Below, piece after piece: positions 37,512 to 57,491 of a stretch of DNA of 64,000 bases. Made by a program: the position numbers and the translations under genes. Under the pieces are notes generated by a model, which was given only the letters and a program-made list of their open reading frames with translations, was not told where the DNA came from and made no database searches. The stretch spans positions 496,001-560,000 of the forward strand of contig CM066287.1 of NCBI GenBank assembly GCA_033816765.1. Reading direction: 5' to 3'. Every line of letters begins with the position of its first letter. The first letter of the stretch is position 1. Source of the stretch: Nothopassalora personata (taxonomy: Eukaryota > Ascomycota > Dothideomycetes > Mycosphaerellales > Mycosphaerellaceae).

Positions 37512-37539
37512 GCTAGAGTACATTTCTACTATCTATTAG

Positions 37540-40500
37540 CCTGTACCCTACACCTACTCGATACGTAACTATACTAACTATACTAGAGCTTACTATATTA
37601 GAGCGTAAACGCCGCCGCGACGAGGACCTACTCGACCCCGGACGCCCTACTAAGTAATCCGTCTTCTAGCGGCTACTAGTAAAGTCGAAGGCTATCGTTA
37701 ATAGTAATGTAACGCTATTAGACCTCGATAGCGCATCGGATAATAGTACTTCCCCTTTTACGACGAAGGACCCCCTCCTAAAGCGGCGCGCTAACTAGAA
37801 CTCGAGCCCTAGACGCCCCGCGAAGAGACCTACCTCTAAGCGGCCGGATATTAAGTCTAAGGAGTTCGTCGATAGCGAGGACTTAACGTTAGACCGCGAT
37901 AGCGCTATTTCTCCCGTACGAAAGCCTCGTACTAAGAATCGTCGCGCCTATAAAGGTAAGGGAAATAGCCGGAGTCGGGTCGCGACTACGAAAGACGTTC
38001 GCCCTAAGCGTAAAGCTTAATAGAAATAGTACCTCTAGGAGTACGCCGACTACCTCGAGGAGCTAGTCGCTAACGGACGGCCCGTTAGTCCCTTTAACCT
38101 AGCCTAGGGCATCTACGTCTCCGGCCTCGAACTCTAGTAGATTAAGTAGTCGAATAATTACCTCCGTAGCTACCTCGGTATAACCGACATAGAGGACTTT
38201 AAGCCGCTCTACGTACTGCTCGCGCCTACCCTCTAATAGTAGGATAAGGGCTATTAGGTATATATTTATCCCCGTAAATCGCTTAAAAGTACCTAACTTA
38301 GAGAGGTCTAAGTTCTTCGCGTAGTTAGACCCGTCTAAGTTAGGGGCTTTTATCGGTTATTTAGATACGGACTTAGTATCTTCTAAGTTCGGTACTGATT
38401 AGCCGTAATCGTTACTCGGCCGCGTACTAACCCGTCGACTAGGACTCCTTTAGCATCGTATACAAAGACGGCGACGAGGAAGACCGCCCTAGTACTATCC
38501 CGAAGCTCTTTATACGCTAACTCCTCGAACTAGACGCTAAGTCCCTCGCGGTACCTACCCTTACCGCCGACCCCGACGACGATACTACCTTTAATACGGC
38601 TTTAAATAGCGGCGCCTTCCCTACTACTAGGCCGTAGAAAGGCCGTCGGGCATTGATCTACGCCCTCCGAACCGCTTATAAGATGTATTACGCCGTAAAT
38701 AGGTACTAGGCGAAGATAGATCTCGAGTATTCTAACGTCCGCTATCTACCGGACATCTTCTTCGGTACTCCCCTCGACCCTACCCCGCCGGTCGTGTACC
38801 CGGTCGAGGGCTTCCCTATACGTAGCGAGGACCTCTTCCGCGCGCTTAACATTATCTATTAGTACTACTACTATTGCTAGGTTAAGGGTAATAGTACTAG
38901 TAAGGTCCGTAGTAAGGACGACCTCGCTAAGCCGTAGAATATCTAGAAACCTACGGGTAAATTATCGCCCGTCGTCTACGTCCCGGTCGTACCCGCCCGT
39001 ACTAATAACGAGTAGTAGGATCGCCGCTACCGAGTAGCTATAGCAACATTAGCCGATGCTAGTAGCGGCATTCGAGGTATCTCCTCGTTCGAGCTAGCCG
39101 AAGAATACTAGGCCGCTCGTAATAACCGCGAAGACGCTACCCTAGCCGCGTTAGATAGTATTATTTACGGTTTCTTTAGCATTACGCCTACTATAGAGTT
39201 TTTTTAGCGCCTCGATACTATAATACCGGACGTCCGCGACCGATTAATAGTCTACCTTACCGAAGGCGTAGAGATCCTATTCGAATCGCCGAGCCGCATT
39301 AATAATATAGGGTTTAGGAGGTTATAGGCCCGGAGGCGATTAGCTACTAGAAACCCTTCGCGCTATAAGAGCTCGAGGACGATATCCCGGTAACGACGAT
39401 AACCGGTAAGGCCTTTACTAAGCTAAGTAGCGATATAAACGGCTAGAGCGCCTACTTACCCTCCTTCGAAGACGCCGTAAAGTATCTCGACCTAGACATT
39501 AAATACCGTTCGGACGGTACGAACGACCCGATTAGCGAACTCCCCTTCGCTATCCGCGCCGGTAGCCTATACCTAAAGCCCTAGTAGGCTACCGCCGCTA
39601 CCTAGGCGGCCCGTATACTTCGCTCCCCTATACGCTCGTATATCCTAGGCGACGACGTCGGACTCGGTAAGACCCTAGAGGTCTACCTAACGTTAATACG
39701 ACTAGCCGAGTAGACTTACTCGACGCTCCGGGACTACCGAGGTACGTCTCCCTTACGTTTAATTGTCGCCTTACTTAGATAGGTCTAAGTCTCGCGGTAG
39801 CTTAGACCCGTCTAAGTTAGGTATCGCGTTTATTCGCGTTTTACTCTATACTAATTCCTATATAGCTACCTACTATACCTATCTCGAGGAGCTCGACGAC
39901 GACGGCTACGACGACTACGACGACTACGACGACTACGACGACTACAACGACTACGACGACACGCCGGCGCGCTACGCGGCGTTTACCGAGATTACTAGCC
40001 CTCGCCTACTCTATCGTCCGGTCCTTACTATCTACCCCCCTAACGGCCTATCCGCCTAGATTACCGACGGTACTAGATATATATATACACCTAGTTAGCG
40101 TAACTACTTCCGCGTAGTTACCTTCTACTCCCTCGGTAAGTCTAATACGACGACTCGGTCGGGCGACTACGAATGTATTATACCGAACACCTTAGCGGGT
40201 CTCGAGGCCTTCGTAGCTACCCTTAATCCCGACGACATTATAACCTCTAAGACTATTATTATTACTACGAATTAGTTATAGTACGGGAAAGTCCTTAAGC
40301 CCGGCGTATTCTACTAGACCCGCCTTAAGAAGCGTAAAGCCCGTAAGGCCCGTAAGGATAGTAAGAACGGTAGACTATAGGCTAACGATAATAGCGACCT
40401 CGACGCCCGCGTAGAGACTACTACCGATAGCGACCCCGATAGTAATACCGACCGCGATAGCGTAAAGCCGCGGCGGCTATTACTAGGTCCGTCCTAGAAG

Positions 40501-42889
40501 TACGCGAGGCGACGTCCGCCGCTACCGGATGTTACCGATAACCGCCTATTACTTACTAACCCTACGATATTTAGTTACGTAGTTAGCGACAAGGCTTATA
40601 ATCTCGTTAACCCCTATACCCTCTAGAGTAATACGATCTACTAACTTTAGCCCCTTATTGGCTTTATCCTAGTTACGGCTACCGTGTTCCGTAATACGAT
40701 CGTAGACGCCGGCGCTCTACTCCAATTTCTATTTTAGTATATTAGGAAGCTCCTAGTACCGGAATTAGTAGAAGACGGCCTTAACCTAGCCTCCTACCGC
40801 TCGCTAGGCGCGGAGTTTACCCGGGACTACTATCGCAATTAGTTCGCTATCCCTAATACGCCGTCTCCCCTCTACTAAGGCTATACTCTCGCCTAGGTCT
40901 ACCTCGCCGCCCTCTATCCCGGCCGCTTTATCTAGAGCGTTACGGCCGAAGACGGCTCCGCTATTTTCTCCGCTCCGCTAGCGCTAGGCATTATCTAGCT
41001 ACGCCGCGTTAAGGGCTAGAAGATCCGAGTCTTTAACTACGAAATAGTTATCTACGATAGTATCCCTCCCCTAACCTTCGTCTACCTCGAGGCCCGGGCC
41101 GATCCTATCTCCGCCGCCCTATATAACCTAGCCTACGATATATACCTAGGCTCTAGTAAGGCGCCGAAGCTATTTACTATCGACGAGGACGACGACGCGA
41201 TAGATACTAGCGGCTACGCTACCTCCCTCCGCCGGTCACTTATCCTTACCGCTAACTACCCGCTTACTACTCGACTACTAGCCCGCCGCGTCGATACTAA
41301 GTCTAAGACCGTCTCTAAATTGTAAGTTGCTCCCCAACTTAGATTAGTCTAAGTCGTTAATTTACTTAGACCTTTCTAAGTTATGTATATCTCCGCGCTA
41401 TATTCTATAGACTAAGCTAACCGCGTCGTATAGGGCCTATAGCGAGACCGATCCGTTCTCCTTCTACTACGCCTCTACGAAGAACGATCTCTAGTCTTAT
41501 AAGCCTAACACCCGGGCCGAGTGTCTTAATTGGATTATTCGGTCGTCCCTTAAGTATTAGATCTTAGTCTTCCTACTCCACCGACACCTAGTCTAGGGGA
41601 ATAAAAAGGTTATTATCTACTACTACGAACCTATCTCGATTATACTAGCGGAAATCGTCTATGTTCTCCTTAGATTCGAGTACCGCATTATCCGGGCCGG
41701 TATTAAGAACCGTACCCGCGTACTCGCCGAACGAGCCTTTAATACCGACCCTCGTATATAGGTTCTTATCTATTCCTCGCGCTCGGCTACCGAGTCTACG
41801 AACCTTTAGGAAGGTAGCTACATTATAATCGTTATAGACTACCTAAGTCTACGCGCTATCTTATAGATAGGCGGCCGGATAAACCGAATCGGTTAGCTCT
41901 ACGCTATAATATACTATATCCTATATACCAACGAGAGCGTCGACTAGGCGCTATAGGCTAAGTACTAAAGCCGGTTCGTCGAGTAGGTTAAGGTTACCGC
42001 TAAGATAGATCCCGTACGTATAGATACTATTCGCCGCGACGACCCCTTCGGACGCCCGTAGGATAAGGAGTTCGTGTTACGACTCGCCGATAATAATAAA
42101 GAGGTCCTCGCCCGCCGTAACTCCGATATCGAGGGTCGTATATTAAACGTCCTCGCCGATACCCTTATACGATCTATATTCGGTATCCGTACTACCCGTA
42201 TACACCCCGCCTAGCTCGACCTTAAGGATACGCGGAAGAAGAATATACTCCCGGACGAATAACTATTCCGCTTCGCCCTCGGTAGCCTTCCCGCGCGAGA
42301 GCTCCTTACTAAGCTTAAGGCCGAGAAGAAACCTACGACCTCCGCTCCTACTAAACTGTACCCCGACGCGCGTCTAGAAGTTAGCTTAACCCCTAAGACC
42401 GAGACGCCCGGTTTAGGCGTATATAAGTTCCGTAACGTCCCGGCCGCGAACTTTAATATAAAGAAGGTTACTACGTATATCCTCGATACCGCCGATAAGG
42501 TTATATCGTCTTCTAACGCTACCCGTATCGCCTATCTTACCTAGACCGGTAAGTTAAGTATATTCTAACTTAGAAAGATCTAAGTCTCTATAGTAGTTAG
42601 ATCTTTCTAAGCCGGGTCGTTTAGTTATCTACTTTTATCCGGGCTTAGTTACTAACTAGCTTATAGATATCCTCGAGGCTGTAGTAAAATCCGTCGACTA
42701 CCCCTCCGATTATATTAAGGCCGAGTTATCGGCCTCTCGTACTACGGATGCCGCTAATAGGCAGGATACCCCGTAGCGCTCCCCTTCTCCTAATAGCGAG
42801 TCCGCCGACGACGAAGGCGAGTCTACCGACGACGAAGGCGAGGGTAATAACGACGATAGCGAGGGTAATAACGACGATGCTCTTTCGTA
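37540..42889 (+). pseudogene. RIP-mutated SNF2-family helicase gene with repeated palindromic introns
   Basis: A long plus-strand coding sequence with at least four introns is broken by RIP stops (Gln to TAG) and a frame change near 39,340. The N-terminal part is basic and nuclear-looking (KRRANQNSSPRRPAKRPTSK). Helicase motif I is ILGDDVGLGKTLE at about 39,640-39,680. Motif III is ILVTATVFRN near 40,665. The C-terminal helicase lobe spans about 41,490-41,930 and ends in the SNF2-type motif VI IGGRINRIG at about 41,870-41,893. An acidic C-terminus (GEGNNDDSEGNNDD) precedes TAA at 42,887. Probable introns are 38289-38442, 39742-39865, 41322-41433 and 42549-42666, with branch sites such as TACTAAC. 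SNF2 ATPases remodel chromatin. Being RIPed, this copy must have belonged to a repeated family; a subtelomeric gene family or mobile-element cargo are both possible. Confidence 0.8.
39895..39962 (+). repeat. GACGACTAC minisatellite in the helicase coding frame
   Basis: About six copies of the 9-bp unit GACGACTAC (Asp-Asp-Tyr) lie in the helicase reading frame just after the second intron. The unit contains no CpA or TpG, so it is immune to RIP and survives cleanly. Confidence 0.85.
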
Positions 42890-43334
42890 AGGTGCTAGAT
42901 ACCTAGGCTAGTCGCTTTAGACACGAATAACTCCTCGCTACGTCCTAGGCGACCTACGGTATACATCGAGGCGGCTAGCGCTACTAGATGCCCGCGGCTC
43001 CAAGGGTCGCGCGTAAGGGTTAGGTTAGTTCTGAATTAGCTAGACGTGTTGGATAGTAGCTACTAGGCCTAGATAGATCTAAGTCTATAAATGTTTTTAG
43101 CCTCTATCTTTCGGCTTAGACCTTTCGAAGTAATGTGTTATTTCTATTACCTATAATCCCGATGTTGTTTACGCTACCCGCGTTATTACGTCCGACCCCG
43201 TTTATGCCCTATTAAACGTAGCGCGTATAATACTACTCGTAATAAGCCGATATATATCGCTATACTTCGCCTTTAGTTTAGCGTAGCCTAATCTTATATC
43301 GTTAGTAGAATCCCCGTAGGTTAGGGTACTATTA
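42890..43334. other. RIP-mutated tail with a fifth palindrome pair
   Basis: Sequence after the helicase stop, up to the family B insertion site. It contains CCTAGATAGATCTAAG (43068-43083) and CTTAGACCTTTCGAAG (43115-43130), a diverged fifth example of the paired palindrome found in the helicase introns. No gene was recognised. Confidence 0.5.
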
Positions 43335-43526
43335 TGTCACCGTACCGGCGCCCATCATTCACTTAGACCCGCGCGCACGTGCGTGGATCCCGCGCGCGCC
43401 GCTGACTAAGCCGGCCCGAGGGCTTGGCGCGTGTATATCTACCTCGCGCCCTCCGCGCCTCTCTTAGATAGACCGTCTATTCGACTTGTACCTTATCCGA
43501 CCACGTGCTTGCACCTGCTTGTAACA
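43335..43526 (+). repeat. Family B 5' LTR
   Basis: 192 bp, TGTCACCGTACC to TTGTAACA, essentially unmutated. It holds a TATATC box near 43434 and, 41 bp downstream, GTCTATTCGA (43475-43484), complementary to TCGAATAGAC at 43529-43538 just inside the LTR. Confidence 0.93.
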
Positions 43527-43528
43527 CT

Positions 43529-43538
43529 TCGAATAGAC
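43529..43538 (+). other. Putative self-complementary primer-binding site of element B
   Basis: TCGAATAGAC begins 2 nt after the 5' LTR and is the exact reverse complement of GTCTATTCGA inside the LTR (43475-43484). This is the layout of Tf1/sushi self-priming elements, where the 5' end of the transcript folds onto the site and is cleaved to prime minus-strand synthesis. No tRNA-type TGG start is present. Confidence 0.6.
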
Positions 43539-43684
43539 CATTACTAACGTGTAGAAAGACACGAGAAGCTGCGATCGGGAGATCGCATAAGCAAACGCGA
43601 CAGCACCTAGGAGTGCTAAGATATTAGGTGCTAGACTTAAATCGAGTCGCACCTTAAGTAAGTCTAAGGCTAACACAACAGCTG

Positions 43685-44316
43685 ATGGCGAGAAAGAACA
43701 ACAATAACGACGACGACATGGCGACTGCTAACCGCCGCGTACATCGCGCGAACATCACTAGATCCTCCCTCTTCGTCCTACCCCCCGACGCGACAAACAA
43801 CGCAAACGGCGATGCGACACAGACTTAAGGCAGAGAAGAGGAGGTTCTAAAGCAGCTAACGGCTAAAGACAACACCTACCACAAGCAGCACAAGAAGGTC
43901 TTCGACCGACTCTAAGAGATCGAGGAGGAGGATGTTAAGACCGAGCTTAACTTTGCTAACCTGTGTAGGGATGAGTACATCGAGGACATTACTAAGGATG
44001 AGAGCGAGGCTCTTACTCCAGGTGCAAAGAAGAGGAGGGTTACTGTTAACCAGTTTTAAGACACCTTCGAGTCTCTTAATGGGCTAAGCTCGGAGAAGCT
44101 TAAGAAGCGAGTTAACGATTACCCTAAGGAGGTCCACAAGATCCTTGTCGACATCGAGTCCGACCACCGACGAGCACACAAGACTATTAAGGCTCTCCAA
44201 CTCGCTAACCGCATTAATATTCGTAAGGCTAAGGATGCGAAGGAGCAGATGGATCGACTCGAGGACGAAGCTAGTACTGCACAAGCTAAAGCAAACCAGA
44301 GACAAGCTAAGGTGGA
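43685..44316 (+). pseudogene. Family B gag, N-terminal half
   Basis: From ATG 43685 the frame gives a basic start (MARKNNNNDDDMATANRR) and a helical, charged region. CAA-to-TAA stops interrupt it, for example in the series ending DRL*EIEEED. The frame is cut after Lys-Val by element C at codon GTG-GA, and resumes after the second target duplication with Asp-Lys-Leu-Lys, so the insertion left the original codon order recoverable on either side. Retroviral-type Gag forms the particle that packages the RNA. Confidence 0.8.
44312..44316. repeat. Target-site duplication of element C, left copy
   Basis: GTGGA here and at 51052-51056 flanks element C exactly; both copies are perfect, supporting a recent insertion. 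Confidence 0.95.
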
Positions 44317-44474
44317 TGTAAGGGGCGAGCCCTTGCATCTTGGCACGGGCTGAGCCCGTGCGGACCTGACTCCGTTTTCTTTGTTCCGGGCTTCGCTCGG
44401 TTTTCTCCTTCTTCTGTATCGAACTTATTGCATACCACACAGAACCTCAGTGTACACGTCGTTCACCCGTGACA
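44317..44474 (+). repeat. Family C 5' LTR
   Basis: 158 bp, TGTAAGGGGCGAGCCC to CCCGTGACA. It contains a 19-nt palindrome (44343-44361, GCACGGGCT-G-AGCCCGTGC) in its upstream part and ATCGAACTTA at 44418-44427, the likely transcript 5' end and self-primer. Confidence 0.95.
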
Positions 44475-44475
44475 T

Positions 44476-44485
44476 TAAGTTCGAT
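44476..44485 (+). other. Putative self-complementary primer-binding site of element C
   Basis: TAAGTTCGAT starts one base after the 5' LTR and is the exact 10-nt reverse complement of ATCGAACTTA in the LTR (44418-44427). This is the Tf1/sushi self-priming geometry; a tRNA primer complement starting TGG is absent. Confidence 0.65.
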
Positions 44486-44532
44486 CCATTCGAATCAACC
44501 AGGCACCCGCCATCAAAGAGACGGAATACGTG

Positions 44533-45738
44533 ATGGCGTCGTCGGGTAGCGAGAACCCCGGGGTTGGTGCCTCGAATGAAAATTTTCAGCTTATGCTCGA
44601 GCAATTGTACCAGCGACAGGAAGAGATGCAGGCCGAACTGATTGCAACGCGCGCCGCCTTGAAAGAGTCGGAAGACGCTCGACGTCAGTCAACCCCTGCA
44701 GTCTCACTACCAGTTCCGGACGACGCGTCTACTGGTGACCTAATGAGACAGTTGCTGCAGACGCTGAATGCCGCCGCGAACGCGCCGCGCAGCGGCGGAG
44801 AACCGTCGGGTCCCAGAGGCTGGAACCCGCCCTCATGGGATGGCAAAGCCGAAACATTCAGGGACTACTTCCTAAGGTTGAAAAGTTCCTTCAGGGTGCG
44901 TTCCGCACTGAAACCGACGCTCTCCAATGAATTCTACTGGGACGCGATCAACGACACGTTGCTAGCGAGGGAGCGCACGAGGATGCGGCACTTCTGGGAC
45001 AAGGGAGACGGTGAACTTGGGAAGGACCCCGTTGCTTTCTTTGCGCAACTCGAAAAGGTCTTTGGCGATAGCAACGAACGCGCCAAGGCTCTAGAACAAC
45101 TCACCAAGATTAGACACGTGAACGGACAACCGTGGCACGATCACCAGATGAAATTCGACGGACTCCTGTTGACCGCCGGCGGAGAAGACTGGAGCAATGA
45201 CGCGAAGATCGGCTACCTCCGCAACACCTTCTCGAATCCCGCCAGAATGTATACGGCAGCCATGCCGAAAAAGGAGGATTACTACGAGTTCGCAGAGGAG
45301 GTTAAGCGGATCATGACCAACCTCGAGGACACAGACCAGTTTAGAATAGCCCACAAGAAGTGGAAGGACAACAACAAGGACTCCAGTGCGACCACCACGG
45401 TTACCACTCGTTCTTTTGCGGGACCTACCGTTACCCGGGTGGACCATGATGGTGACACCATCATGGCACCAACCCGAACGAACGGAGGCCGCTCTAGAAG
45501 TCGTGGAGACCGGAAGGAGGACAAGGGGAAGCAGAGAGCGAAATGGGTCGACACCGCTGAGAGAGATCGAAGGCGCCAAGAACAGCTCTGTTTCCGTTGC
45601 GGAGCGAGCGGGCATCGAGTGAAGGAATGTCCGTACGCCGCAGCAGTCAACCCCACCAAGATCAACGCAGCCTCAGTTGCGCCGATCCTGGAAGACGACG
45701 GGTTTGAGTCGGATCCCGAAGATGTGGGAAAAGACTAG
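44533..45738 (+). CDS. Gag polyprotein of element C
   Basis: 401 residues from ATG 44533 (a GTG immediately upstream at 44530 is not a likely start). The N-terminal 60 residues are Gln/Glu-rich and coiled. A capsid-like central region follows (WDGKAETFRDYFLRLKSSF; QPWHDHQMKFDGLL). A basic linker precedes one CCHC zinc knuckle, CFRCGASGHRVKEC (CX2CX4HX4C), near residue 355, which binds RNA. The final codons hold the slippery site GGGAAAA (45726-45732) 3 nt before TAG. Gag assembles the cytoplasmic virus-like particle. The frame is intact. Confidence 0.92.
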   Translation: MASSGSENPGVGASNENFQLMLEQLYQRQEEMQAELIATRAALKESEDARRQSTPAVSLPVPDDASTGDLMRQLLQTLNAAANAPRSGGEPSGPRGWNPPSWDGKAETFRDYFLRLKSSFRVRSALKPTLSNEFYWDAINDTLLARERTRMRHFWDKGDGELGKDPVAFFAQLEKVFGDSNERAKALEQLTKIRHVNGQPWHDHQMKFDGLLLTAGGEDWSNDAKIGYLRNTFSNPARMYTAAMPKKEDYYEFAEEVKRIMTNLEDTDQFRIAHKKWKDNNKDSSATTTVTTRSFAGPTVTRVDHDGDTIMAPTRTNGGRSRSRGDRKEDKGKQRAKWVDTAERDRRRQEQLCFRCGASGHRVKECPYAAAVNPTKINAASVAPILEDDGFESDPEDVGKD

Positions 45739-45765
45739 CTCCTGGGCGAAAGCCAGCACCAGGAG
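45726..45765 (+). promoter_or_regulatory. Programmed -1 frameshift signal of element C
   Basis: In the gag frame the heptamer reads G GGA AAA (45726-45732), the X-XXY-YYZ form. After a 6-nt spacer follows a perfect 7-bp stem, CTCCTGG (45739-45745) with CCAGGAG (45759-45765). Slipping back one base gives GGG AAA AGA and leads straight into the open pol frame, while the gag frame ends at TAG 45736-45738. Confidence 0.8.
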
Positions 45766-48700
45766 ACAAAGAAGCACTGGTAAAGGGGTGGAACGCTGCC
45801 AAGAGTTCTATGAACGGGAACCTTGTATATACCGACGTACTCCTGAACGAAAGTTACGGCACGTTTGCCCTTATCGATGAAGGATGCATGTGTTATGCTG
45901 TAATTAACGGAGACCTAGCGAAAGGACTCGGTCTCACGTATGTCAGCAACGAGAGCCGCAAGGCTACAGGGTTCACCAAAGCGATGCGAAACTCGATTGA
46001 AGGAGTAGTTGCTTTCCACATGGAAATCGCCGGCATCCACGAGGTCGTGTACGCATACGTCGTGCCCGACTTGGACTTCCCGATGATTCTGGGGAACCCT
46101 TGGAAAGCGCACAATCAAATCCGAACTGCGCCAGAAAAGCACCGGTACTACCACGGTTTGGCAAAGAAATGGGTGCCCGAAGGACGCAACCATAAAGAAC
46201 GCGAGGCGGGCGAACGTTTTGCTACGATCGCCGCGGCAACCGTGGAGGACATCAAGAAAGCCCTGAGCAAGAAGGAACCGCCCACGAGGGAGGAGCTCAA
46301 AATGAAGCTGCCTCCGGAACTTTGGGACATGATCCCACTCTTTTCCACGCGGGAAGCCGACAAGCTCGCGCCCCATCGTGGGGAACTTGACCACAGGATC
46401 GAGATCCGGACGAAACCAGACGGATCGCAGGAGCCACTGCCCTGGGGACCGTTGTATAGCATGTCGAAAGACGAGCTGCTGGTGCTACGCAAGTCGCTAA
46501 CCGAGCTGCATCGCAAGGGATACATCCGTCCCTCCACCTCAGAAGCGGCGGCCCCCGTCCTGTTTGTGAAGAAGCCCGGAGGAGGACTACGCTTTTGCTG
46601 CGATTATAGGGCGCTGAACGCGATTACGAAGCAAGATCGCTACCCGCTGCCTTTGATCCCGGAGACCATCCGAAATCTAACGGGAGCCAGATGGATGACG
46701 AAGGTGGACGTAGTTGCCGCGTTCCACCATCTCCGGATGGCAAGAGGCGAGGAGTACAAGACCGCGTTTAGAACGAGATTTGGCCTGTGGGAGTGGTTGG
46801 TGTGTCCGTTTGGTTTGTCCGGGGCGCCGGCAACTTTCCAACGGTATATTAACAGTTTGCTGCGGGAACACCTGGACGACTTCGCCTCTGCATACGCTGA
46901 TGACGTAGTGATCTACTCGGATGGGTCGAAGGAGGACCACTTCAAGAAGGTTCGCATCGTTCTCCATAAGCTTTGGGACGGAGGCCTGTTCTTAGATCCA
47001 GGTAAATGCGAGTTCGCACAGAAGAAGATCAAGTACCTAGGGTTCATCGTCCACGCCGACGGAAAGGGGGTGGGACCAGACCCGGAAAAGGTGGATGCCG
47101 TACGGGACTGGAAGACGCCCGTCACTCAGAAAGAAGTGCGTCGTTTCCTCGGGTTCGCGAATTACTACAGGATGTTCATCCCCAACTACTCGAAGTTGGC
47201 CGAACCCTTGACGTCGCTGACGGAAAAGAAAACGCCGTTCTCCTGGGGGAAACGTCAGGAGGACGCCTTTCAGGCCCTGAAGAAGAAGTACTGTGAAGCT
47301 CCTGTGCTGGCCCATTGGAACCCGGAGCTTCCCACCTTTTTGGAGACGGACTGCAGTGGATTTGCCCTGGGTGGCGCTCTCCTGCAAGAAAAGGACGGGG
47401 TAGTGAAGCCGGTAGGGTTCTACTCAAAGAAACTGAATAAGGCTGAGATTAACTACGACATCCATGACAAAGAGATGCTCGCAGTAGTCTCCTGCCTCAA
47501 AGAGTGGGCCCCCGAGCTGAAAACGTGTGGTCCCTTTACAATTTGGACGGACCACAAGAACCTTGAGTACTTTATGACAAAGAGGCAGTTGTCTGAGAGG
47601 CAGATCAGGTGGGTGGAGCACATCGCGTTGTTTCAGTTTACCCTGGTATACAGGCCGGGCGCCGAGGCAATTGTGCCGGATGCATTGTCACGGAGGGAGC
47701 AGGATACGCTCGGCCAGGACGACAAATTGTCGCGTTTTCGCAGGTTTTTGCGGCCGGATGCCATACGCAATTGGCCGGCTCCAGGGGGGGGAGGCGAGGT
47801 GGTAGCAGATGCACCTTCATCCGCTACGATGGTTTCATCGGTCCAGATTATGGCCACCCAATTCGGAGTCGACTCCACCGAGAAAACGTCGGACTCACCG
47901 GGCGCATCATCGGGCCCCTTCACAGATCCAGAATTGAACGAGATCTGGAGGAAGACCGCCGATGAAGACAGCACGTTTCAGGCAGTACTCCACGCAGTAA
48001 GAACCGGGGCGCGTTCACTCCCGAGCGAAGTGAAGCTCAAGGTACAAGCCGGTGACTGCAGCATCGACGACAACGGACACCTGCGGCACCGCGGAAGAAT
48101 CTGGGTGCCGGGAGCCCCAGCAACGACGGAAGCCGACTACAAAGAGGCGGGCGCGGAGATATTGCAGAACGATGTCCTGCGGACGAAGCTCATCCAGTCC
48201 GTTCATGATTCACCGGTCTACGGCCATCCAGGCAGGGACTCCACAGCGTCTATCTTGAGACGTAACTTTTACTGGCCTCTACAGTCAAGGCACGTGAGAC
48301 AGTTCTTGAGGAACTGCGATCACTGTGGGAGAAATAAGGTATGGAGGGAGCAAAAGCATGGACTCCTTCAGCCTTTACCGGTACCCGATCGTTTCTTCCA
48401 GGAGATCTCTATGGATTTCATGACGGACATGCCGGAGTCGCAGGGAAACACTTGCTTGTGGGTAATCAAGGACAGACTGAGCAAGACCGTCGTCTTGGAA
48501 GCGATGTCCACCATGAAAGCGGAGGACTGCGCCGAGAGATTCCTGGACTGCTGGGTGAGATACTACGGGATTCCTAAGGCCATCACGAGCGATAGAGGCA
48601 CGAACTGGACAAGCACATTCTGGAAGACATTCTGTCGTTTAACCGGCGTGAAGCAGAGACTTAGCTCCGCCTACCACCCACAAACGGACGGAGGGCCCGA

Positions 48701-49532
48701 GAGGTTGAACCAAGAAGTGCAGGCGTACCTTCGGAATTATGTCAACCACGAGCAGTCCGATTGGAAAAAGTGGCTCTCCACCGCTCAGCTGGCGCTGAAC
48801 GGACGGTACCAAGCGGGCCTAGGCATGAGCCCCTTCTTTGCCGTCCACGGTTACGAAGCGCCATTCCCCGTCCAGTTGCAGCCGGACTCAACGACTTCGT
48901 CGCTGGATGCCGCCAAACGGGCAACGCTCTTTGTGGAAAGGATGCAGCAGATCACGGACCTGTGCCAAGCGAGCATGGCGGACTCCGCCCAGGAGCAAGA
49001 GGAGAGCGCCAACAAAGATCGGAAGCCAGCGCCGATTTATCGGGTCGGTGACAAGGTGTGGCTGGATCTAAGGAACTACACTACGACCCGGCCGAAGAAG
49101 AGTATCGACCATAAGCACGCAAAGTACACGGTGGCGGAGGTCATCTCACCGCTGTCCATCCGATTGTCAGGGATCCCCGATGGAATCCACCCGGTCTTTC
49201 ACCCAGACTTGTTGCGACCTGCAAGCCAAGACCCGTTGCCTGGACAGGAGATCGACGACAAACAGCCGGACCCCATCCTCATTGAATCTCATGAGGAATG
49301 GCATGTAGAGGAGATTCTCTGCGCCAGAACCAAGGCGAAAGGGAGGGGCAAAGCACGCGAAGTCCTAGTGAAATGGACTGGATACCACAAGCCTACGTGG
49401 GAACCATTGGAGTATCTAGCGGACACAGCTGCAGCAGACGACTTTGAGAAAAAGCACGGCAACCCGATGACGCACGATGGACCAAGGCAAGCATGGGAAG
49501 TCAAGAAGAAGGGCAGGGCGACAGGTAAGTGA
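45732..49532 (+). CDS. Pol polyprotein of element C (PR-RT-RH-IN-chromodomain)
   Basis: Pol is made as a Gag-Pol fusion by -1 frameshifting; the first ATG in frame is 45810, giving 1,240 residues from there. The protease core is GTFALIDEG near residues 17-25, with Asp23 followed by Glu-Gly instead of Ser/Thr-Gly. RT has [20 protein letters not shown] and the active-site YADD near residue 361. RNase H has FLETDCSGFALGGAL, DKEMLAVV and WTDHKN. Integrase has a HHCC zinc domain (HPGRDSTASILRRNFYWP ... CDHC) near 805-840, then SMDFMTD, ITSDRGTNW and a Glu in GGPERLNQEV as the D,D,E triad. A chromodomain (EEWHVEEIL ... VLVKWTGYHKPTWEPLEYL) near 1,160-1,215 probably directs insertion to H3K9-methylated chromatin, consistent with its nest site. 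The frame is intact. Confidence 0.95.
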   Translation, partial: RLAPGRKPAPGDKEALVKGWNAAKSSMNGNLVYTDVLLNESYGTFALIDEGCMCYAVINGDLAKGLGLTYVSNESRKATGFTKAMRNSIEGVVAFHMEIAGIHEVVYAYVVPDLDFPMILGNPWKAHNQIRTAPEKHRYYHGLAKKWVPEGRNHKEREAGERFATIAAATVEDIKKALSKKEPPTREELKMKLPPELWDMIPLFSTREADKLAPHRGELDHRIEIRTKPDGSQEPLPWGPLYSMSKDELLVLRKSLTELHRKGYIRPSTSEAAAPVLFVKKPGGGLRFCCDYRALNAITKQDRYPLPLIPETIRNLTGARWMTKVDVVAAFHHLRMARGEEYKTAFRTRFGLWEWLVCPFGLSGAPATFQRYINSLLREHLDDFASAYADDVVIYSDGSKEDHFKKVRIVLHKLWDGGLFLDPGKCEFAQKKIKYLGFIVHADGKGVGPDPEKVDAVRDWKTPVTQKEVRRFLGFANYYRMFIPNYSKLAEPLTSLTEKKTPFSWGKRQEDAFQALKKKYCEAPVLAHWNPELPTFLETDCSGFALGGALLQEKDGVVKPVGFYSKKLNKAEINYDIHDKEMLAVVSCLKEWAPELKTCGPFTIWTDHKNLEYFMTKRQLSERQIRWVEHIALFQFTLVYRPGAEAIVPDALSRREQDTLGQDDKLSRFRRFLRPDAIRNWPAPGGGGEVVADAPSSATMVSSVQIMATQFGVDSTEKTSDSPGASSGPFTDPELNEIWRKTADEDSTFQAVLHAVRTGARSLPSEVKLKVQAGDCSIDDNGHLRHRGRIWVPGAPATTEADYKEAGAEILQNDVLRTKLIQSVHDSPVYGHPGRDSTASILRRNFYWPLQSRHVRQFLRNCDHCGRNKVWREQKHGLLQPLPVPDRFFQEISMDFMTDMPESQGNTCLWVIKDRLSKTVVLEAMSTMKAEDCAERFLDCWVRYYGIPKAITSDRGTNWTSTFWKTFCRLTGVKQRLSSAYHPQTDGGPERLNQEVQAYLRNYVNHEQSDWKKWLSTAQLALNGRYQAGLGMSPFFAVHGYEAPFPVQLQPDSTTSSLDAAKRATLFVERMQQITDLCQASMADSAQEQEESANKDRKPAPIYRVGDKVWLDLRNYTTTRPKKSIDHKHAKYTVAEVISPLSIRLSGIPDGIHPVFHPDLLRPASQDPLPGQEIDDKQPDPILIESHEEWHVEEILCARTKAKGRGKAREVLVKWTGYHKPTWEPLEYLADTAAADDFEKKHGNPMTHDGPRQAWEVKKKGRATGK

Positions 49533-49755
49533 CGGATTGCGGGTCAGTTGACATGAGCACAGGCGTTTGGGAGCAGGAGTCAGATTGAGAGCACGTGAGA
49601 AAAGGAAAAAGTTTTAAAGAATTTCATTCATTCATGCCGCCAAAAGGCAGCGGGGCCCGACCAAAAAGAAGCGGAGGCCGGCCCACCCCATACGGGGATG
49701 GCAAAAGCATTGTGATGGCCCGACCGCGGCCCGCGCGAAAACCACCGGAGACCAC

Positions 49756-50379
49756 TCAAGACATGTCGCGGCGGGTGCCAAGGCGGAGGGCAGGAGGGAC
49801 GGGGCCGCTGGAAAATGATCGGTCAGCGACGTCTTTCAATCGGAGTGCAACCCTTACGAGCCAGCTTGCGCGTTGATGGCTCCCTCCATGGAGCCAGTGA
49901 CCTCAGCAGCCACAGGACTGAGAGACGGTTAGCGATGGTTTTCAATCGGAGACCGGTGGAAATTACCCGGACAGCAGACCATCGGACTCGAGCTTGGAGA
50001 GCGGGCGCCAAGCCTTGATGACCTTCTTGAGATTGTCGAGTTTGGTGCTTTTCAGGCGTTAGCCGACGGAAAACGATCGCAGGCCGGAGACTTACGCCTT
50101 GGAAGCGTTGCCGGCACGGGTCCAGGCCGCGTACGCCTTGTGGCAGAGTGCTGAGTGTGGGGGGTTAGCGGAGTCCGGTCGAAAGGGGTCGGAGAGCGAC
50201 TCACAGCGGGCGGCAGCGCTTCTGAAGGCGGCGGCACTCGTCGCAGCTGCGGACTTGATTGGCGGCCTGCGGATGTTTGTGAGCGGAGTCCGGCTGGAAA
50301 ACGTCGGACTCAGGCGTCTTACGGCAGGGCCCACGCAATCGCGGCCAGAGTTGGCGCACTCCAGGCAGTGGTAGAGCAT
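49756..50379 (-). CDS. Antisense spliced gene in element C: Zn2Cys6-like cysteine cluster protein
   Basis: On the strand opposite to pol, exons 50387-50323, 50266-50205, 50150-50096, 50047-49967, 49917-49858 and 49807-49756 (TGA at 49756-49758) alternate with GT-AG introns of 56, 54, 48, 49 and 50 nt. Another intron, 50439-50388, lies in the leader. From ATG 50379 the first exons give CLECANSGRDC, an 11-residue spacer and CDECRRLQKRC, i.e. CX2CX6C-X11-CX2CX6C, the fungal binuclear zinc-cluster spacing with the basic half second. Later exons read CHKAYAAWTRAGNASKA, TKLDNLKKVIKAWRPLSKLE and a Gly/Ala-rich tail ending RRDMS. The phase at the exon 3/exon 4 joint is off by one base in my reading, so this copy may carry an indel or a misjudged splice site. 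A DNA- or RNA-binding accessory factor is inferred. Confidence 0.6.
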
Positions 50380-50649
50380 GTTTTCTGCTGGAAACCAGTT
50401 AAAAAGCATCGGAGGCCGGCTCAAAAGAATCGGACTTACTTGATGGTATTGATTGAAGATGTGGTGTTTGGAGGCTGTTGTGTTGGTGGTGCTGGAATCC
50501 GGTTAGTTTCTGTCGGAGCGCGGCGAGAAGGAATCGGATCGAGGGCGAAGGGGATCGTAGAGAGGGGCGGAGGTGATAGGGCTAGTGGAGGAAGAGGAGG
50601 GAGGGTGCTGTCAAGGGGTGTGTTCACATACATTCGCTTAATGGTTGCC

Positions 50650-50681
50650 GAGCAAAAAAAAAAAAAAAGAAAAAAAAGAGG
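50650..50681 (+). repeat. A-rich run in the 3' region of element C
   Basis: Nearly uninterrupted A with a few G, upstream of the leader of the antisense gene (T-rich on that strand, as in many fungal promoters). Confidence 0.6.
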
Positions 50682-50872
50682 AAGCTATCCGGTAGATATA
50701 TTCTGGAGTCCTATTGTTCACATGTGACAATAGCCATTGTCACATGGGTAACAACACGAAACCTCACACTCACCTAGGCAACAATACCACAACACAGCGA
50801 CGGCGGGACCCGACAATGAAGGCACGGCCTTCGACGGCGACAACAAGCAGGCGGAGGAGACGCTGCAGGCGG

Positions 50873-50890
50873 CGGAGGGGAGAGGGGGGG
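50873..50890 (+). other. Polypurine tract of element C
   Basis: A run of G with few A ends 3 nt before the 3' LTR at 50894, the expected position of the primer for plus-strand DNA synthesis. Confidence 0.75.
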
Positions 50891-50893
50891 TAA

Positions 50894-51051
50894 TGTAAGG
50901 GGCGAGCCCTTGCATCTTGGCACGGGCTGAGCCCGTGCGGACCTGACTCCGTTTTCTTTGTTCCGGGCTTCGCTCGGTTTTCTCCTTCTTCTGTATCGAA
51001 CTTATTGCATACCACACAGAACCTCAGTGTACACGTCGTTCACCCGTGACA
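50894..51051 (+). repeat. Family C 3' LTR
   Basis: 158 bp, reading the same as the 5' LTR at every position compared by eye; followed by the target duplication GTGGA (51052-51056). Confidence 0.95.
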
Positions 51052-52476
51052 GTGGACAAGCTAAAGGCAGAACTTGCGAAGCACACCGACAAAGTCATTA
51101 TCGACCCGGATGAGCTGGACAAGGTTAAAGCCGAGTTAGCCACGACCATAGAAGCGAGGAAGCTGTATCGCACCCAGTGTAAGGCAGCTAAGGCTAAGCT
51201 TGTTAATGCTAAGAAGCGCATCGAGGAGCTTAAGAAGAAGGAAAAGGAGAGACGTGAGAAGCGTAGGCGATCCAAGCAACGCAAGGACTCACGTAAGGAG
51301 TCACCACCTCCACGCACCGAATCCGAGGAGTCGCTGGAGCGTCGTCGTAATGGTAACAAGCTAAAGCCGACTAGAGAAGACGACAACCCATCATTAGACT
51401 CCTCCGACTCCGAATCCTCCGACAGCGATAACGAGCGTGGTTACCGTCGTGGCAGCAAGCGTAAGAATTCTAAGTCTAAGAAGAAGGGCTCGAAGAGCAA
51501 GGAGCCGCAGTCCCGCTACACCACATACGACTCCACGATGACCACTGGCATTAAGTCGTTAAGTGAGCCGAAGGCACCGAAGGAGTTCGACCCACTGGAT
51601 GAGAAGGGCATTAAGTTCGAAGAGTGGCAGCGTGCCGCCGAAGCCAGGCTGGCAGCGTCTAAGTACCGCACTGTAACGGCTTTACTGTAGAATGTCTAAA
51701 GCTGGCTTAAGAACTTAGCCTGGAAGTATGTCGACTCTAAGATTCCTAGTCTCACTAAGGTTACAAGCGGCACGACACCAGCTTACGCCTCGGTTAATGA
51801 CATAATGGACGATCTAGCAGCCCGCTACGGCACTCGTAATGCGCACGCCACTGCTATAACAAAGCTTACTACACTGGACTAGGGCGAGAAGCAGAAGTTC
51901 AGCGAGTTCTACCCTATCTTCCGCGAGAACGTAGACATTGTTAACCTGGACGCCGGTACTACCGACAAGAAGCTTAAGAAGGACTTCCTGCTACGTAAGC
52001 TGAACGCGAGATACGACAACCGCATTATGAGTGAGAACACGGCTAACATGACCCTTAATTAGGTCGTGTCTATGCTGTACACTTATAAGGACAAGTTCGA
52101 GCAGTACGACCTTAAGCACAAGAAGCAGTCCGCTAACAAGCCTAAGAACACTAAGGGCAACGACGACAAGAAGGACGGTGCCACAGGTGGAGGTAGAGGT
52201 GGAAGCACTAACGCTCCTTCTAACCCTAACTCTAAGACTAAGTAGGCCGACCGTCCGCAGAAGTACCAGCACCTACAGCCACTGGATGCTACTAAGGCGC
52301 AAGAGTGCATTAATTAGAACAAATGCATAAAGTGCGAGGAAGTGGGTAACCGCCGTGTCGACTACGACCAGTGCCCACTAAAGGACGTTAGCCGGCGTCC
52401 ATACGCGCCAGGCTACAACCCAAGCACCAACCGACGCAACGGCAATAACACCGGCGGCGGTTCGGGAAACGCATAG
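51052..52476 (+). pseudogene. Family B gag, C-terminal part
   Basis: Continuation of the B gag after element C. It holds a Lys/Glu-rich coiled coil (KAELAKHTDKVIIDPDELDK), an Arg/Ser-rich region, a capsid-like domain beginning near 51,580 (PKEFDPLDEKGIKFEEWQRA) and a terminal cysteine motif near 52,330 that reads CIKCEEVGN...C, with Asn where the zinc-knuckle His would be. Stops (TAG at 51688 and others) all replace Gln codons, the mark of light RIP. The frame is not shifted anywhere. The end holds a GGGAAAC slippery heptamer. Confidence 0.82.
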
Positions 52477-52506
52477 TCCACTCTGTGAGCGCAACATACA
52501 GTGGAC
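52464..52506 (+). promoter_or_regulatory. Programmed -1 frameshift signal of element B
   Basis: The heptamer G GGA AAC (52464-52470) is in the gag frame. A 5-nt spacer is followed by a perfect 7-bp stem, GTCCACT (52476-52482) with AGTGGAC (52500-52506). The -1 frame then runs through pol to 56747 with only RIP-type stops. Confidence 0.75.
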
Positions 52507-55500
52507 GAGACGAGTCAGTACGAGAGTTACGAGATTACGAACATAAGAAGGAGCCTCTAGATAGAGGCAAGAATTTAAGCATATCGGCACACTCCCTGCT
52601 CGCAGCCAACCATTCTGTAGATGAACACAACCTAGTAATAGCTTCTCATCTAGTTATGCCATGCATAGTGAATAAAAAGATCCCTGCTCAGTCCTTCCAT
52701 AATAATGGTGCCAACTCTACGTACTTTAACATCGACTTTACGCATAAGAACGACCTTTATTTAGTCGAGCTGCCCAACCCAATGGGACTAATGTTAGTAG
52801 ATGGCTAACCTGCTAGTAAACTGATTACTCACAAAACAACGGCACAGATTCAAATCGGCAATTACGTTAAGACGCGAGTTAGTTACTACACATCGCTAGA
52901 ATATAATGTTATCCTCGGCCGTCCATGGCACGACGAGCATTAGCCTGTGTTCTACTATGCGTTAGGAACTATAACCCTGTTTTCACAATACTGTCGAGAG
53001 AACTGCATACATGGCGACGAGCCTGTGTACGTGTAGTCTATTAACGATAAGGGCGTTACGCCAGTGGGCATCCTCTAGATAGAGATACCCGTGCCAGAGT
53101 CGTTACTAGCTTCGACAGGATACGTTAAGCCCTATGTCGAAGATGAAGAGCTAGCAGTAGTGCAAGAGACGCACTCCACGAAAGCCGCTATAAGACATGC
53201 GCCACCGGTAGAGATGGAAGACGAGTCGGAGCCATTACACAACGTCCGACAACCATTGCTAGCTAATAGCCCGGAGACCTTAAAACGACCAGCACGCCGC
53301 ACTAACAAGAAGGCGTTAGTGTAGCCGGAGCCGGAGATCGACATCTAACCTATTACTACCGAGGCATTAAGGCGCATAAGTAGGCGTAAGGGTTTTAAGG
53401 GATGTGAGATCCACATAATGTGGATGTTTAATCCGAAGGAGGACTTGGACAGATAGGTGGCTCGCGATCCCCTGTCCGCCTGCGCACTAAATGCATCCGC
53501 CATCTCGGCCGACGACTACTAACGCTTTATGAACCTAAAGGACAAGGACCAGGACCCCATACCTTTGTTGCCACTAGAGTTCCGAGAGATAGCCAGGCTA
53601 TTCAGTCGTAAGGAAGCAGACAAAGTGCCACTACGGCGACCGGGCGTAGATCATAAGATTAAACTTAAGGCTAGCTAGACTCCACCGTTTCGACGACTAT
53701 ACTCCTTCTCTACACGAGAGAACGAGGTGATTAAGAAGTGGCTCGATGATTAGCTCGAGAAAGGCGCAATACAGCGCAGCGTGTTACTAGCAGCAGCACC
53801 TGTCCTAATAGTTAAGAAACTAGGAGGTGGGCTGCGGGTCTGTGTCGACTACCGAGCATTAAACGCGATTACAACGAAAAGCCGGTATCCTATCCCCCTC
53901 TTCTAAGAAACACTGGATCGCATTGTAGGAGCGCAATGGTTCACTAAGCTAGATGTTATCGCCGCATTTAACCGCATCCGCATCGCAGCGGGTGATGAAT
54001 GGAAGACAGCCTTTACAACGAGGTACGGGCAGTTCGAATGTGTTGTTATGCCTTTCGGCCTGTGTAACGCCCTAGGCACATTTCAGTCGTTCATTAACGA
54101 CACGCTTCGTGAGTTCCTAGATGACTTCGTATTATGCTACCTAGACGATGCGCTCGTTTTTAGCAAGACTCGTGAGGAACACGTGGAGCATGTTATAAAA
54201 GTTCTTAAACGACTAGACAAATCAGGCTTACAGCTTAACATCGATAAGTGTGAGTTCTTTAGACACGAGACGACATACCTTAGTGTTATTATTACAAATG
54301 AGGGCATTAAGATAGATCCTAAGAAAATCGAATGCGTTAAGAACTAGCCCACACCCGCTAATGTTACCGACATTCTATCGTTTACAGGGTTCGCCAATTT
54401 CTATCGCAGATTCATAAAGAACTTTAGTAAGATCTGCTTACCGATAACTAAGTTAACCCGTAAGAACGTACCATGGGAATGGTTAGAAGCTTACTAGAAG
54501 TCGTTCGATGCCCTAAAGCAGGCATTCATCGACGCGCCCACGCTAAAGCACTTCTATCTAGGAAGAGAGACGATCCTTAAAACGGATGCATTAGACTACG
54601 TAACAGCAGCAGTCCTGTCGTAGCGTAATGAGAACGGCGTACTGCATCCTATTGCATATATGTCTAAGAAAATAGACCCACAACAATGCAACTATAACAT
54701 CTACGACAAAGAGTTACTAGCCATTGTGCAAGCCTTTAAGGAATGGCGCCCAGAGCTTACCGTTAATGAGTTCGGCACGGACGATTACGAGAACCTACCT
54801 AACCTAGAGTTAGCAGAAGACAAGCCGACGCTCGTGTACTCTAACTACAAGAACCTAGAGTAGTTTATGAGCACGAAGCAGTTAAATCGCCGCTAAGCAA
54901 GGTGGGCCGAGTTCCTCTCTCAGTTCTTCTTTAAGATCGTGTATCGACTAGGGGTGTAAGGCACTAAGCCTAATAGCCTTACTAGGAGATCTTAGGACTT
55001 GCTAATCTACGGTGATCTAAGCGACCCGCGCAATTAGTAGTAGCACCAGGTGCTACTAGGACTAGACCGCATTCTTAACCTGTCGTCGTCGCGAGTTCTA
55101 AACATTAGTGCGAACGACGTGGTTACTCCGTTAACGACTACGATCCGAGAGCTGTACGCACAGCTAGAGACCGAGGAAGCAGTACGGCAGCTAGAGAACG
55201 ACTTACCCTATTCTTTGCTACGTAAGCACCGTCTGGATAACCGACACGCCGTGCCAGTAGGAGGCATAATCTACATAAAGAACGTGTACGGTGGGTACAG
55301 TCTCTTTATGCCTCCTAAGTTAGAAGAAGCACTCGACGACGGTAAAGTGCCAGTACGCACCCGCATTACCTAAGCCTTCCACGATTACGCAGTTACAGGT
55401 CACATAGGTGACGAGAAGACGTACGAGCTGGTAGCCCGTAACTACGTCTAGCCTAGCATGGCACGTTTCGTTAAGTCCTATGTGCGAGCCTGCCGCATCT

Positions 55501-56747
55501 GTCGTACGAACAAGAGTACGAACATCTAATACCCAGGGCTGTTAAAACCCTTGCCAGTTCCCTTTGTAGCATGGGAGGATGTTGCGATGGATTTCGTAAC
55601 TCATCTACCACTAGGCAAGAGTGCGCTGGATGGGCAAACGTACGAAGATGCCCTAACCGTTACATGCCGACTTACTAAGGAGAAACACATAATCCCAGTT
55701 TAATCGATGACTGTAGAGCACACAGCCCTCGTGTACCTACGATATGTGTTTAGCAGGCATGGACTCCCGAAGAGCATTGTCTCTAACCGTAGCACACAAT
55801 AGGTGTCCGCATTCTGGAGACGTCTCTACGCCCTGTTAGGAATTAAGCAGAAGCTTTCGTTAGCATATTACCCTAAGACTAATGGACAGTCCGAGAACAC
55901 GAACAAGGCTATGGAGTAGTATTAGCGCATGTTTGTTAACTACGCTTAGGATGACTGGCTAGACTGGACTCCCCTCGCTAAGTTTAAAGCTAACAATGCC
56001 GTGTTAGCTACAACAGGTGTATCGCCGTTCTATGCTAATACTGGCCGCAACCTAAGGTTCTCTAAACTCGAGCTAGATCTTCGAATGCGACTTATACCCT
56101 ACAAGCAACGCTTAGATGCTAAAGCAGCGGATCGCTTTACAACAAAGATGCACGACATGCAGCAATATCTTCGCTAACAGATGGCTCTCGCCTAAGCCGT
56201 AAAAGCCGAGTATGCTAATTAGAACCGCACACCAGCGCCGCTCTATAAGGAAGGCGATGAGGTGTGGATTAGCACCGAGAACTGGACTATGGAGAGACCT
56301 TTACGAAAGATGGATGTTAGGTGGTCGGGCCCGCACGTAATTACGGAGGTGCTTCCGGGTAATGCTTATAAAGTGGATCTCCTACCCACCATAAATATCG
56401 ACAACCACTTTTATTCGCACCTTCTTTTACTAGTACACCCGCCAGTCCAGGGACAAGTACAACCAGCTCCTCCGCCGATTCGCATTGTCGACGATGAACA
56501 GCACGAGACCGACCCCGCCGAACCCGACCACTAGGAAGTTAAGCAAATCCTAGATTATAAGAAGAGATGGCCGTGCGGACGCGCACCAGTAGGAGGGAAG
56601 CAGCCGTATTAGGAATACTTAGTGAAGTACGTTAGATACAATCGGCCATCCTATAAAGCTGCGGATTAGGTTATTAAGGGTGCCGCCGCCTCTATAGCCG
56701 ACTTTTACTACAACCACCCGCGAGCGACGAAACCACCTAGTTTTTAA
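52471..56747 (+). pseudogene. Family B pol, lightly RIPed (PR-RT-RH-IN-chromodomain)
   Basis: One frame is kept over 4.3 kb, interrupted only by TAG/TAA in place of Gln. The protease region is at about 52,560-53,000. RT is at about 53,760-54,350, with [27 protein letters not shown] and [15 protein letters not shown]. RNase H is at about 54,560-54,900. Integrase is at about 55,370-56,160, with MDFVTHLP, an Asp to Asn change in SIVSNRSTQ (expected SDR), and NGQSENTNKAME. The C-terminal chromodomain-like segment is EVKQILDYKKRWPCGRAP ... YLVKYVRYNRPSY near 56,535-56,700. The protein can no longer be made in full, but the decay is slight compared with B-prime. Confidence 0.88.
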
Positions 56748-57299
56748 ACCACCTACAGACTGGGTTGCAAATGAGAATACTATAGGCATGCGAGTAGCAC
56801 GCACAGCACCCACGTCGTTAGCAGCGATAACTCTAATGCCGGTAGGACTAGGCCTCCGGACTTATAAGAAAGAGAGCGATACGCGTCGCGATAACGATCC
56901 TTCTCGACAAGCAGACCGAGTCCCTTAAGCTCAGCGCTTGCGTAGCGCGAGTTACAATAGCAGCAATACTACCGATAGTCATTAGAACACAGTGTGCAGC
57001 CGCCTAGATGGCGCGAGTCACTATAGCATAGGGCGCCTGTGCGACGAGCTTAGTACACACACCGAAGAGGACACCGTCCGGACAGTAACTGAGGTTGCTG
57101 TGCCGTGTCGCCGCGACAACCCACCTGCGTTACGTAGCATTATGGATGGTGACGAGGTGGGTACAACGACAGTAGTTACAAATAACGATAAGATGGACGT
57201 AATAGATAACGACCTAATGGATAATAAGACATTTGCAATGGCAATGATGGATGTAAGAGGAAAGAGTGCTCCGGAGCGCACTCTAAAAGGGGGGGGTAG
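56748..57299 (+). other. 3' non-pol region of element B
   Basis: About 550 bp between pol and the 3' LTR. A plus-strand frame from 56992 continues into the LTR (Asp/Thr/Met-rich, for example DKMDVIDNDLMDNKTFAMAM) but no domain is recognised. The polypurine tract is the AAAAGGGGGGGG-type run at 57287-57297, just before the LTR. Confidence 0.5.
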
Positions 57300-57491
57300 T
57301 GTTACCGTACCGGCGCCCATTATTCACTTAGACCCGCGCGCACGTGCGTGGATCCCGCGCGCGCCGCTGACTAAGCCGGCCCGAGGGCTTAGCGCGTGTA
57401 TATCTACCTCGCGCCCTCCGCGCCTCTCTTAGATAGACCGTCTATTCGACTTGTACCTTATCCGACCACGTGCTTGCACCTGCTTATAACA
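57300..57491 (+). repeat. Family B 3' LTR
   Basis: 192 bp, TGTTACCGTACC to TTATAACA. It differs from the 5' LTR by four RIP-type transitions and is followed by the duplication TATTA (57492-57496). Confidence 0.93.

Follow-up and report, generated by a model that had tools for sequence, protein, structure and literature searches.

The closest counterparts in layout are Boty and BcGypsy1 of Botrytis and Sclerotinia, whose antisense gene brtn lies between pol and the 3′ LTR (PMC7264820, PMC4227169, PMC8365987). Like the element described here, they are fungal gypsy-type elements with gag, reverse transcriptase (RT), integrase (IN), a chromodomain and an extra antisense gene, brtn being known to us via papers citing Zhao 2011. 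A BRTN-like transcript has also been reported in Monilinia (PMC5987419). The antisense aORFs of Grande (gene23), RIRE2, Retand and PvRetro13 have the same position and strand (PMC7264820); these are plant elements, likened here by position and strand alone. The function of antisense accessory genes of LTR retrotransposons is stated as unknown in one of these papers (PMC7264820). Our literature search, which covered titles and abstract openings, with subscription papers mostly beyond reach, did not return any retrotransposon of fungi that carries sites for a self-encoded zinc-cluster protein. VANDAL elements are DNA transposons. The VANC21 protein of Arabidopsis VANDAL21 binds a short motif present many times in its own element, among other places in introns and at the noncoding termini (PMC5735166).

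Here we describe an antisense gene in a retrotransposon, hereafter element C, within a 64,000-nucleotide stretch of Nothopassalora personata DNA (the window). Element C is a recently active chromodomain Ty3/gypsy retrotransposon, with the RT–RNase H–integrase–chromodomain order of chromoviruses, LTRs and a target duplication:

44317–44474, + strand, 5′ LTR (158 nt, TG...CA), an identical repeat, with GTGGA before it at 44312–44316
44479–45738, + strand, gag open frame with zinc knuckle (PF00098, E 6.2e-5)
45708–49532, + strand, pol open frame with RT, RNase H, integrase and chromodomain (PF00078, PF17917, PF17919, PF17921, PF00665, PF00385)
50894–51051, + strand, 3′ LTR, same sequence as the 5′ LTR, with GTGGA directly after

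The antisense stretch of element C is present in 17 genome copies at 98–100% identity, the window copy included; beyond these, the DNA search returned a decayed copy (L025) at 86% identity and a 50-nt scrap. All 16 other young copies have two LTRs each, 99–100% identical to the window LTR, and the C family has therefore moved recently. In the window copy, gag and pol (44479–49532) occupy two frames; across the 17 copies the frame that holds RT is 1677 amino acids long in 11, 1274 in 5 and 1383 in 1. Six copies (L011–L015 and L023) are clustered at G000:C1:5714830–5775500, with a spacing of about 10.78 kb within each half; three on the + strand are followed by three on the − strand in a mirror arrangement, either a duplicated array or an assembly effect. 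The differences of L025 (G000:C9:2596880–2604180) are mostly C-to-T and G-to-A, which is RIP-like. Element C is seemingly nested in another, decayed gypsy element (window 43335–57491), whose 192-nt LTR-like repeats lie at 43335–43526 and 57300–57491 and which has a relative at 28391–35227.

Between pol and the 3′ LTR, the opposite strand can be read as a gene with six short introns, as proposed in a preliminary description of this DNA. Its parts are listed below, the splicing being predicted from splice signals and their alignment in a related subfamily of the element:

50654–50677, − strand, T-rich tract upstream of the gene, a putative promoter tract (C/T-rich in the related subfamily)
50492–50631, − strand, candidate 5′UTR intron, GTATGT ... 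CTAAC ... CAG
50388–50439, − strand, intron 1, read in the window and aligned in the subfamily
50323–50379, − strand, exon 2 from its ATG, with the first CX2CX6C (window reading, subfamily comparison)
50267–50322, − strand, intron 2, read in the window and aligned in the subfamily
50205–50266, − strand, exon 3, with the second, basic CX2CX6C (CDECRRLQKRC), a weak Zn_clus match
50151–50204, − strand, intron 3, followed by an exon 3/4 joint out of phase by one (window, C copies and subfamily)
50096–50150, − strand, exon 4 (window reading, subfamily comparison)
50048–50095, − strand, intron 4, read in the window and aligned in the subfamily
49967–50047, − strand, exon 5 (window reading, subfamily comparison)
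49918–49966, − strand, intron 5, read in the window and aligned in the subfamily
49858–49917, − strand, exon 6 (window reading, subfamily comparison)
49808–49857, − strand, intron 6, read in the window and aligned in the subfamily
49756–49807, − strand, exon 7, up to the stop codon of the exon 4–7 frame (window reading)

The six introns have GT...AG ends at exactly the positions first proposed. Introns 2–6 contain branch-like CTAAC, CTGAC or CTCAC sites, and intron 1 has TTAAC, read directly. An additional intron 3′ end had been suggested at 50492; it can be paired with a donor GTATGT at 50631, and a 5′UTR intron is plausible because this donor aligns with GTAAGT in the related subfamily. Tandem Repeats Finder reported no tandem array, its sole output being the homopolymer-like tract at 50654–50677.

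The single joint said to be off by one base is that between exons 3 and 4 of the window copy; the subfamily is in phase there. No indel that would alter this phase is present in the neighbouring exons of 15 of the 17 aligned C copies, so that the frame breaks at the joint in these 15. The remaining two differ by additional indels, L023 by several single-base ones in exons and L024 by the loss of nine bases where intron 3 ends. As spliced, the predicted C product would keep its six cysteines, continue in another frame and stop in exon 6, and would have an altered tail, perhaps without a dimerization part. We also considered a C copy with indels that would explain the joint. The extra base of L017–L022, which is missing from L016, and that of L025 lie inside intron 3 and leave the exon phase unchanged.

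A search with the RT part of pol, in which 108 of 2430 candidates were scored (17 of the 108 being C copies), yielded 91 further copies with stops, 74–85% identical at the protein level. We read the antisense region in five of this related subfamily (L068, L069 and L071–L073; 78–81% protein identity in the RT part), all five with stops. Introns lie at the six aligned places in every one, except for a deletion in L069 over part of introns 5–6, and GT...AG ends are mostly kept, with altered donors in some. With subfamily exon ends placed manually at the aligned splice signals, and exon 6 taken from four of the five copies, exons 2–6 measure 57, 62, 55, 81 and 60 nt in C versus 66, 59, 60, 84 and 60 nt in the subfamily, equal modulo 3 in four of the five. 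Exon 4 (55 versus 60 nt) is the sole exception; the off-by-one joint is therefore real and absent from the subfamily. Intron positions and most exon phases of the antisense gene are thus conserved in a diverged subfamily, and it is this comparison that supports its being a spliced gene.

Subfamily strings of exon 2 and exon 3 were found at 101 and 114 genome places, so the antisense gene is widespread and old. The DNA search had shown 18 gene-bearing copies, and the exon-string search was needed to reach more than 100 subfamily places. The gene is present in most copies: in full in the 17 C copies, at 86% identity in L025, and as exon strings at the 101 and 114 places, to be set against the 91 decayed RT copies scored. 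When the exon 2 register is moved three codons from the DNA alignment, one or more subfamily copies have cysteine at each of five positions out of the six. Using patterns that allowed solely TAY or TGY at two cysteine positions, the first of exon 3 was TAC or TAT in 100 of 100 places listed of the 114, and the second of exon 2 was TGC in 1 of 100 places listed of the 101. TAY codons at cysteine positions are what RIP, itself inferred from the kind of changes, would leave, which is no proof.

These data bear on a reading in which the antisense transcript regulates the element by itself, through dsRNA or siRNA, with no part played by the protein. Such a role has been discussed for plant antisense ORFs (PMC7264820), and the frame is broken in most C copies. 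However, exon phase is kept across subfamilies in four of the five exons compared, and an RNA acting alone would leave the motif in gag and pol described below unexplained; we consider this reading improbable.

The predicted product of the window copy has the six-cysteine spacing CX2CX6C-X11-CX2CX6C, which is restored across the exon 2/3 joint as had been claimed. This falls within the Zn2Cys6 spacing, CX2CX6C-X5-12-CX2CX6-8C. Its match to the Zn_clus profile (PF00172) reaches 14 bits against a cut-off of 21 (E 0.055), below the Pfam gathering score, and for that reason we do not class the product as Zn2Cys6. A further difference from fungal Zn2Cys6 regulators is the order of the halves: the profile start, which corresponds to the usual N-terminal half, is matched here by the second, basic half. 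Genome searches for a host paralogue returned C copies only (68 of 68 and 36 of 36 matches), with the limit that such searches would overlook a distant host gene, because more than 100 subfamily copies were also missed. Well-studied Zn2Cys6 proteins typically target pairs of CGG triplets in inverted, direct or everted orientation (PMC5559640).

The six introns fall into the two groups of look-alikes noted in the preliminary description. Their interiors are more alike than chance, with a summed pairwise local alignment score of 163 versus 99.7 ± 5.3 in dinucleotide shuffles (0 of 500 reached 163), the closest pairs being introns 2 and 3 and introns 5 and 6. The antisense stretch contains one direct-repeat family of seven 26-nt copies, two of which lie outside the six introns, at 49650–49675 after the stop codon and at 50513–50538 upstream of intron 1 in the candidate 5′UTR intron. 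The constant part of the repeat is CGG-N3-CCGG-N11-CGG, that is, the everted CGG-triplet motif CCG-N12-CGG with a CGG before it. The motif often has this third CGG seven bases upstream and an A/T tract in its spacer. Counting the LTR twins twice, there are 24 CCG-N12-CGG sites in element C, in LTRs, gag, pol, flanks and introns:

44372–44389, unstranded, site in the 5′ LTR, with its twin in the 3′ LTR at 50949–50966; the aligned LTR position of the subfamily holds TCCG-N12-CGGA
44507–45611, unstranded, four sites in gag (motif scan; starts 44507, 44654, 45239, 45594)
46406–49194, unstranded, eight sites in pol (motif scan; starts 46406, 46827, 47662, 47676, 48133, 48199, 48868, 49177)
49657–50516, unstranded, nine sites in the antisense gene region (motif scan), with a tenth upstream at 50810
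Starts 49657, 49678 and 49731, unstranded, sites after the antisense stop codon
Starts 49805 and 49953, unstranded, sites that each cover the end of an intron and a few bases of exon
Starts 50175, 50290 and 50416, unstranded, sites in introns 3, 2 and 1, respectively
Start 50499, unstranded, site in the candidate 5′UTR intron

When the exact motif spans were cut out, spacers included, which takes away more than half of introns 1–3, the intron score fell from 163 to 90 (null 76.6; 2 of 500 shuffles reached it). The residual likeness is mainly between introns 5 and 6, a pair with a longer block in common that possibly arose by local duplication. Intron likeness is thus due mainly to the element-wide motif and not to intron copying: the introns are alike mainly because they hold CCG-N12-CGG sites where sequence can change freely. 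The preliminary description had instead seen introner-like elements, with one intron multiplied within the gene and the retrotransposon as a vehicle for spreading it to host genes. Intron-copying families have been reported from Pezizomycotina (PMC9860276), and the likeness beyond chance, which for introns 5 and 6 persists outside the motif spans, speaks for copying. Ascomycete introner-like elements likewise show alike introns within one genome, the difference being that they recur in many unrelated genes. Here, two strict intron-core patterns matched element copies only (53 of 53 and 31 of 31; 2 and 0 matches for reversed-pattern controls), that is, one gene of one element, with zero matches to either core outside it in the genome sequence searched, parts of which are masked as N. 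Furthermore, five copies at 78–81% RT identity have introns at the same places, which were therefore not recently copied in, and the motif also lies outside introns and in gag and pol. Stable folding is a feature of introner-like elements. On the antisense strand, the folding of four introns does not exceed that of shuffled sequences, only intron 2 has a z below −2 (−2.21, 7 of 200 shuffles), and intron 5 reaches −1.44 (17 of 200). We therefore regard the introner reading as highly improbable. More generally, alike introns need not be copied introns, since common short sites can mimic an introner family.

The 12 CCG-N12-CGG sites of gag and pol compare with a mean of 3.08 in synonymous (protein-preserving) shuffles, none of 1000 reaching 12. 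When gaps of 4–24 were scanned, only N12 and N19 (12 versus 5.23) stood at 0 of 1000, the counts at all other gaps being equalled or exceeded in 145 or more of the 1000 shuffles, and the N19 excess follows from the extra CGG in the motif. A weight matrix built from the seven noncoding copies of the antisense region, in which gag–pol had no part, gave 15 matches at a score of at least 4 on the + strand of gag–pol versus 3.9 expected (0 of 500 synonymous-codon shuffles) and 6 versus 1.6 on the − strand (2 of 500). It also gave one 16.9-bit match in each LTR; the first 14 kb of the window held five matches at 4 or above on the two strands combined and none at 7 or above. In a scan of all triplet-gap-triplet combinations, CCG-N12-CGG ranked first in the noncoding part, as judged against independence and not shuffles, and second in gag–pol after TTT-N6-GGA, which fits the same motif. 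The gag–pol scan is indecisive on its own because palindromes count twice and the largest z of 40 shuffles was 6.79 versus 6.54; the excess is decided by the named N12 spacing test. To our knowledge, everted N12 spacing has no precedent in a known Zn2Cys6 regulator.

Beyond element C, exact CCG-N12-CGG sites number zero in the first 14 kb of the window, in each of its three host gene frames and in each of its other gypsy stretches (51052–57299, 28581–35035 and 60507–64000), the latter being partly decayed too. In the genome, TCCG-N12-CGGA occurs at 1283 places (857 for the reversed-pattern control) and the N13 version at 479 (control 979). Among the matches listed, the first 54 distinct places with N12 spacing include 36 that, by our own count, belong to this element clade by position or spacer. 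The subfamily has exact sites in its LTRs, in intron 1 and in the 3′ flank, together with two in pol and one in gag. By coordinate arithmetic each of them has a counterpart in C, apart from a pol site near 47874, for which C carries a one-off site. Within the antisense region, three to four of six to seven CGG-N3-CCG positions per copy coincide between C and the subfamily versus 0.2 expected (for each of the five copies, none of 1024 shifts reached it), and two to three of six CCG-N12-CGG positions coincide versus 0.35 (reached by 5–26 of 1024 shifts). Sites are thus kept in number while single ones come and go.

Since the motif is palindromic, recognition may also occur at the RNA level. In one such reading it serves to package or condense the genomic RNA, as a signal read by Gag or another protein along the sense strand. 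Sites do occur over the full length of the RNA, in gag and pol as well, the antisense introns are retained in sense RNA, and TCCG-N12-CGGA could form a 4-bp stem. However, the stem letters do not covary: the triplets are fixed, the outer pair is complementary in 4 of the 24 sites, and at gap 12 no other inverted triplet is in excess, which argues for recognition by a protein rather than for hairpins. The introns speak against it too, four of the six folding like shuffles and introns 2 and 5 somewhat better, with the antisense strand as the one folded. On these grounds we disfavour an RNA hairpin, and a packaging signal seems to us quite unlikely.

A protein that recognizes the sites might come from the host. 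Zinc-cluster transcription factors are numerous in fungi, and host Zn2Cys6 factors could bind here, either exploited by the element or repressing it, with the antisense gene incidental. CGG half-sites are used by such factors (PMC5559640), and each LTR carries one site. A promoter role, however, has no need of the sites in gag and pol, and the three host gene frames and the first 14 kb hold zero sites; we consider a host factor unlikely.

We favour, tentatively, recognition of the element by its own antisense product. The accessory protein would be expressed from its own antisense promoter, its transcript would be spliced, and it would sit as a dimer on CCG-N12-CGG sites and so recognize copies of its own element. 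As the outcome, LTR transcription would be switched on and/or host silencing countered along the length of the element. Retrotransposition would not remove the antisense introns, since the genomic RNA is of the opposite strand. That the product acts like a Zn2Cys6 protein on the element's own sites, in the manner of VANC, is a serious possibility that falls a little short of probable; we infer both binding and splicing here. The six-cysteine spacing and the CGG half-sites are shared with fungal Zn2Cys6 regulators. Against this reading stand the sub-threshold profile match, the stops and altered cysteine codons of the subfamily, and the frame break of most C copies. The fuller proposal, that a zinc-cluster-like protein recognizes two dozen sites of its own element for activation or anti-silencing and that these sites are maintained even in protein-coding DNA, is possible, if more speculative.

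VANC21 would be the closest working parallel to the proposed self-recognition. In both cases many copies of one short motif lie inside the element itself, introns included (24 sites here, with enrichment and spacing controls), binding being predicted for element C. The VANC21 motif is YAGTATTAY, and its two tested coding-region probes were without it, whereas gag and pol of element C have sites (PMC5735166). VANC21 sites lie mainly over noncoding parts, and the coding-DNA sites of element C go beyond that parallel. If correct, self-recognition would explain concretely why LTR retrotransposons carry antisense accessory genes, and element C would be the second, independent example of a transposon whose DNA is marked for recognition by its own protein. 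With one small domain, one spaced motif and N11 and N13 as built-in controls, the proposal lends itself to a direct test.

Three further observations concern the rest of the window. A HET-domain gene lies at 10568–11614, in the gene-bearing part, and a run of 100 N at 60407–60506 is a gap or a masked stretch. In 37520–43334, where no gypsy pol was found, there are six CCG-N12-CGG sites versus one to five at other gaps of 6–19, with a motif-matrix match of 10.9 at 41869.
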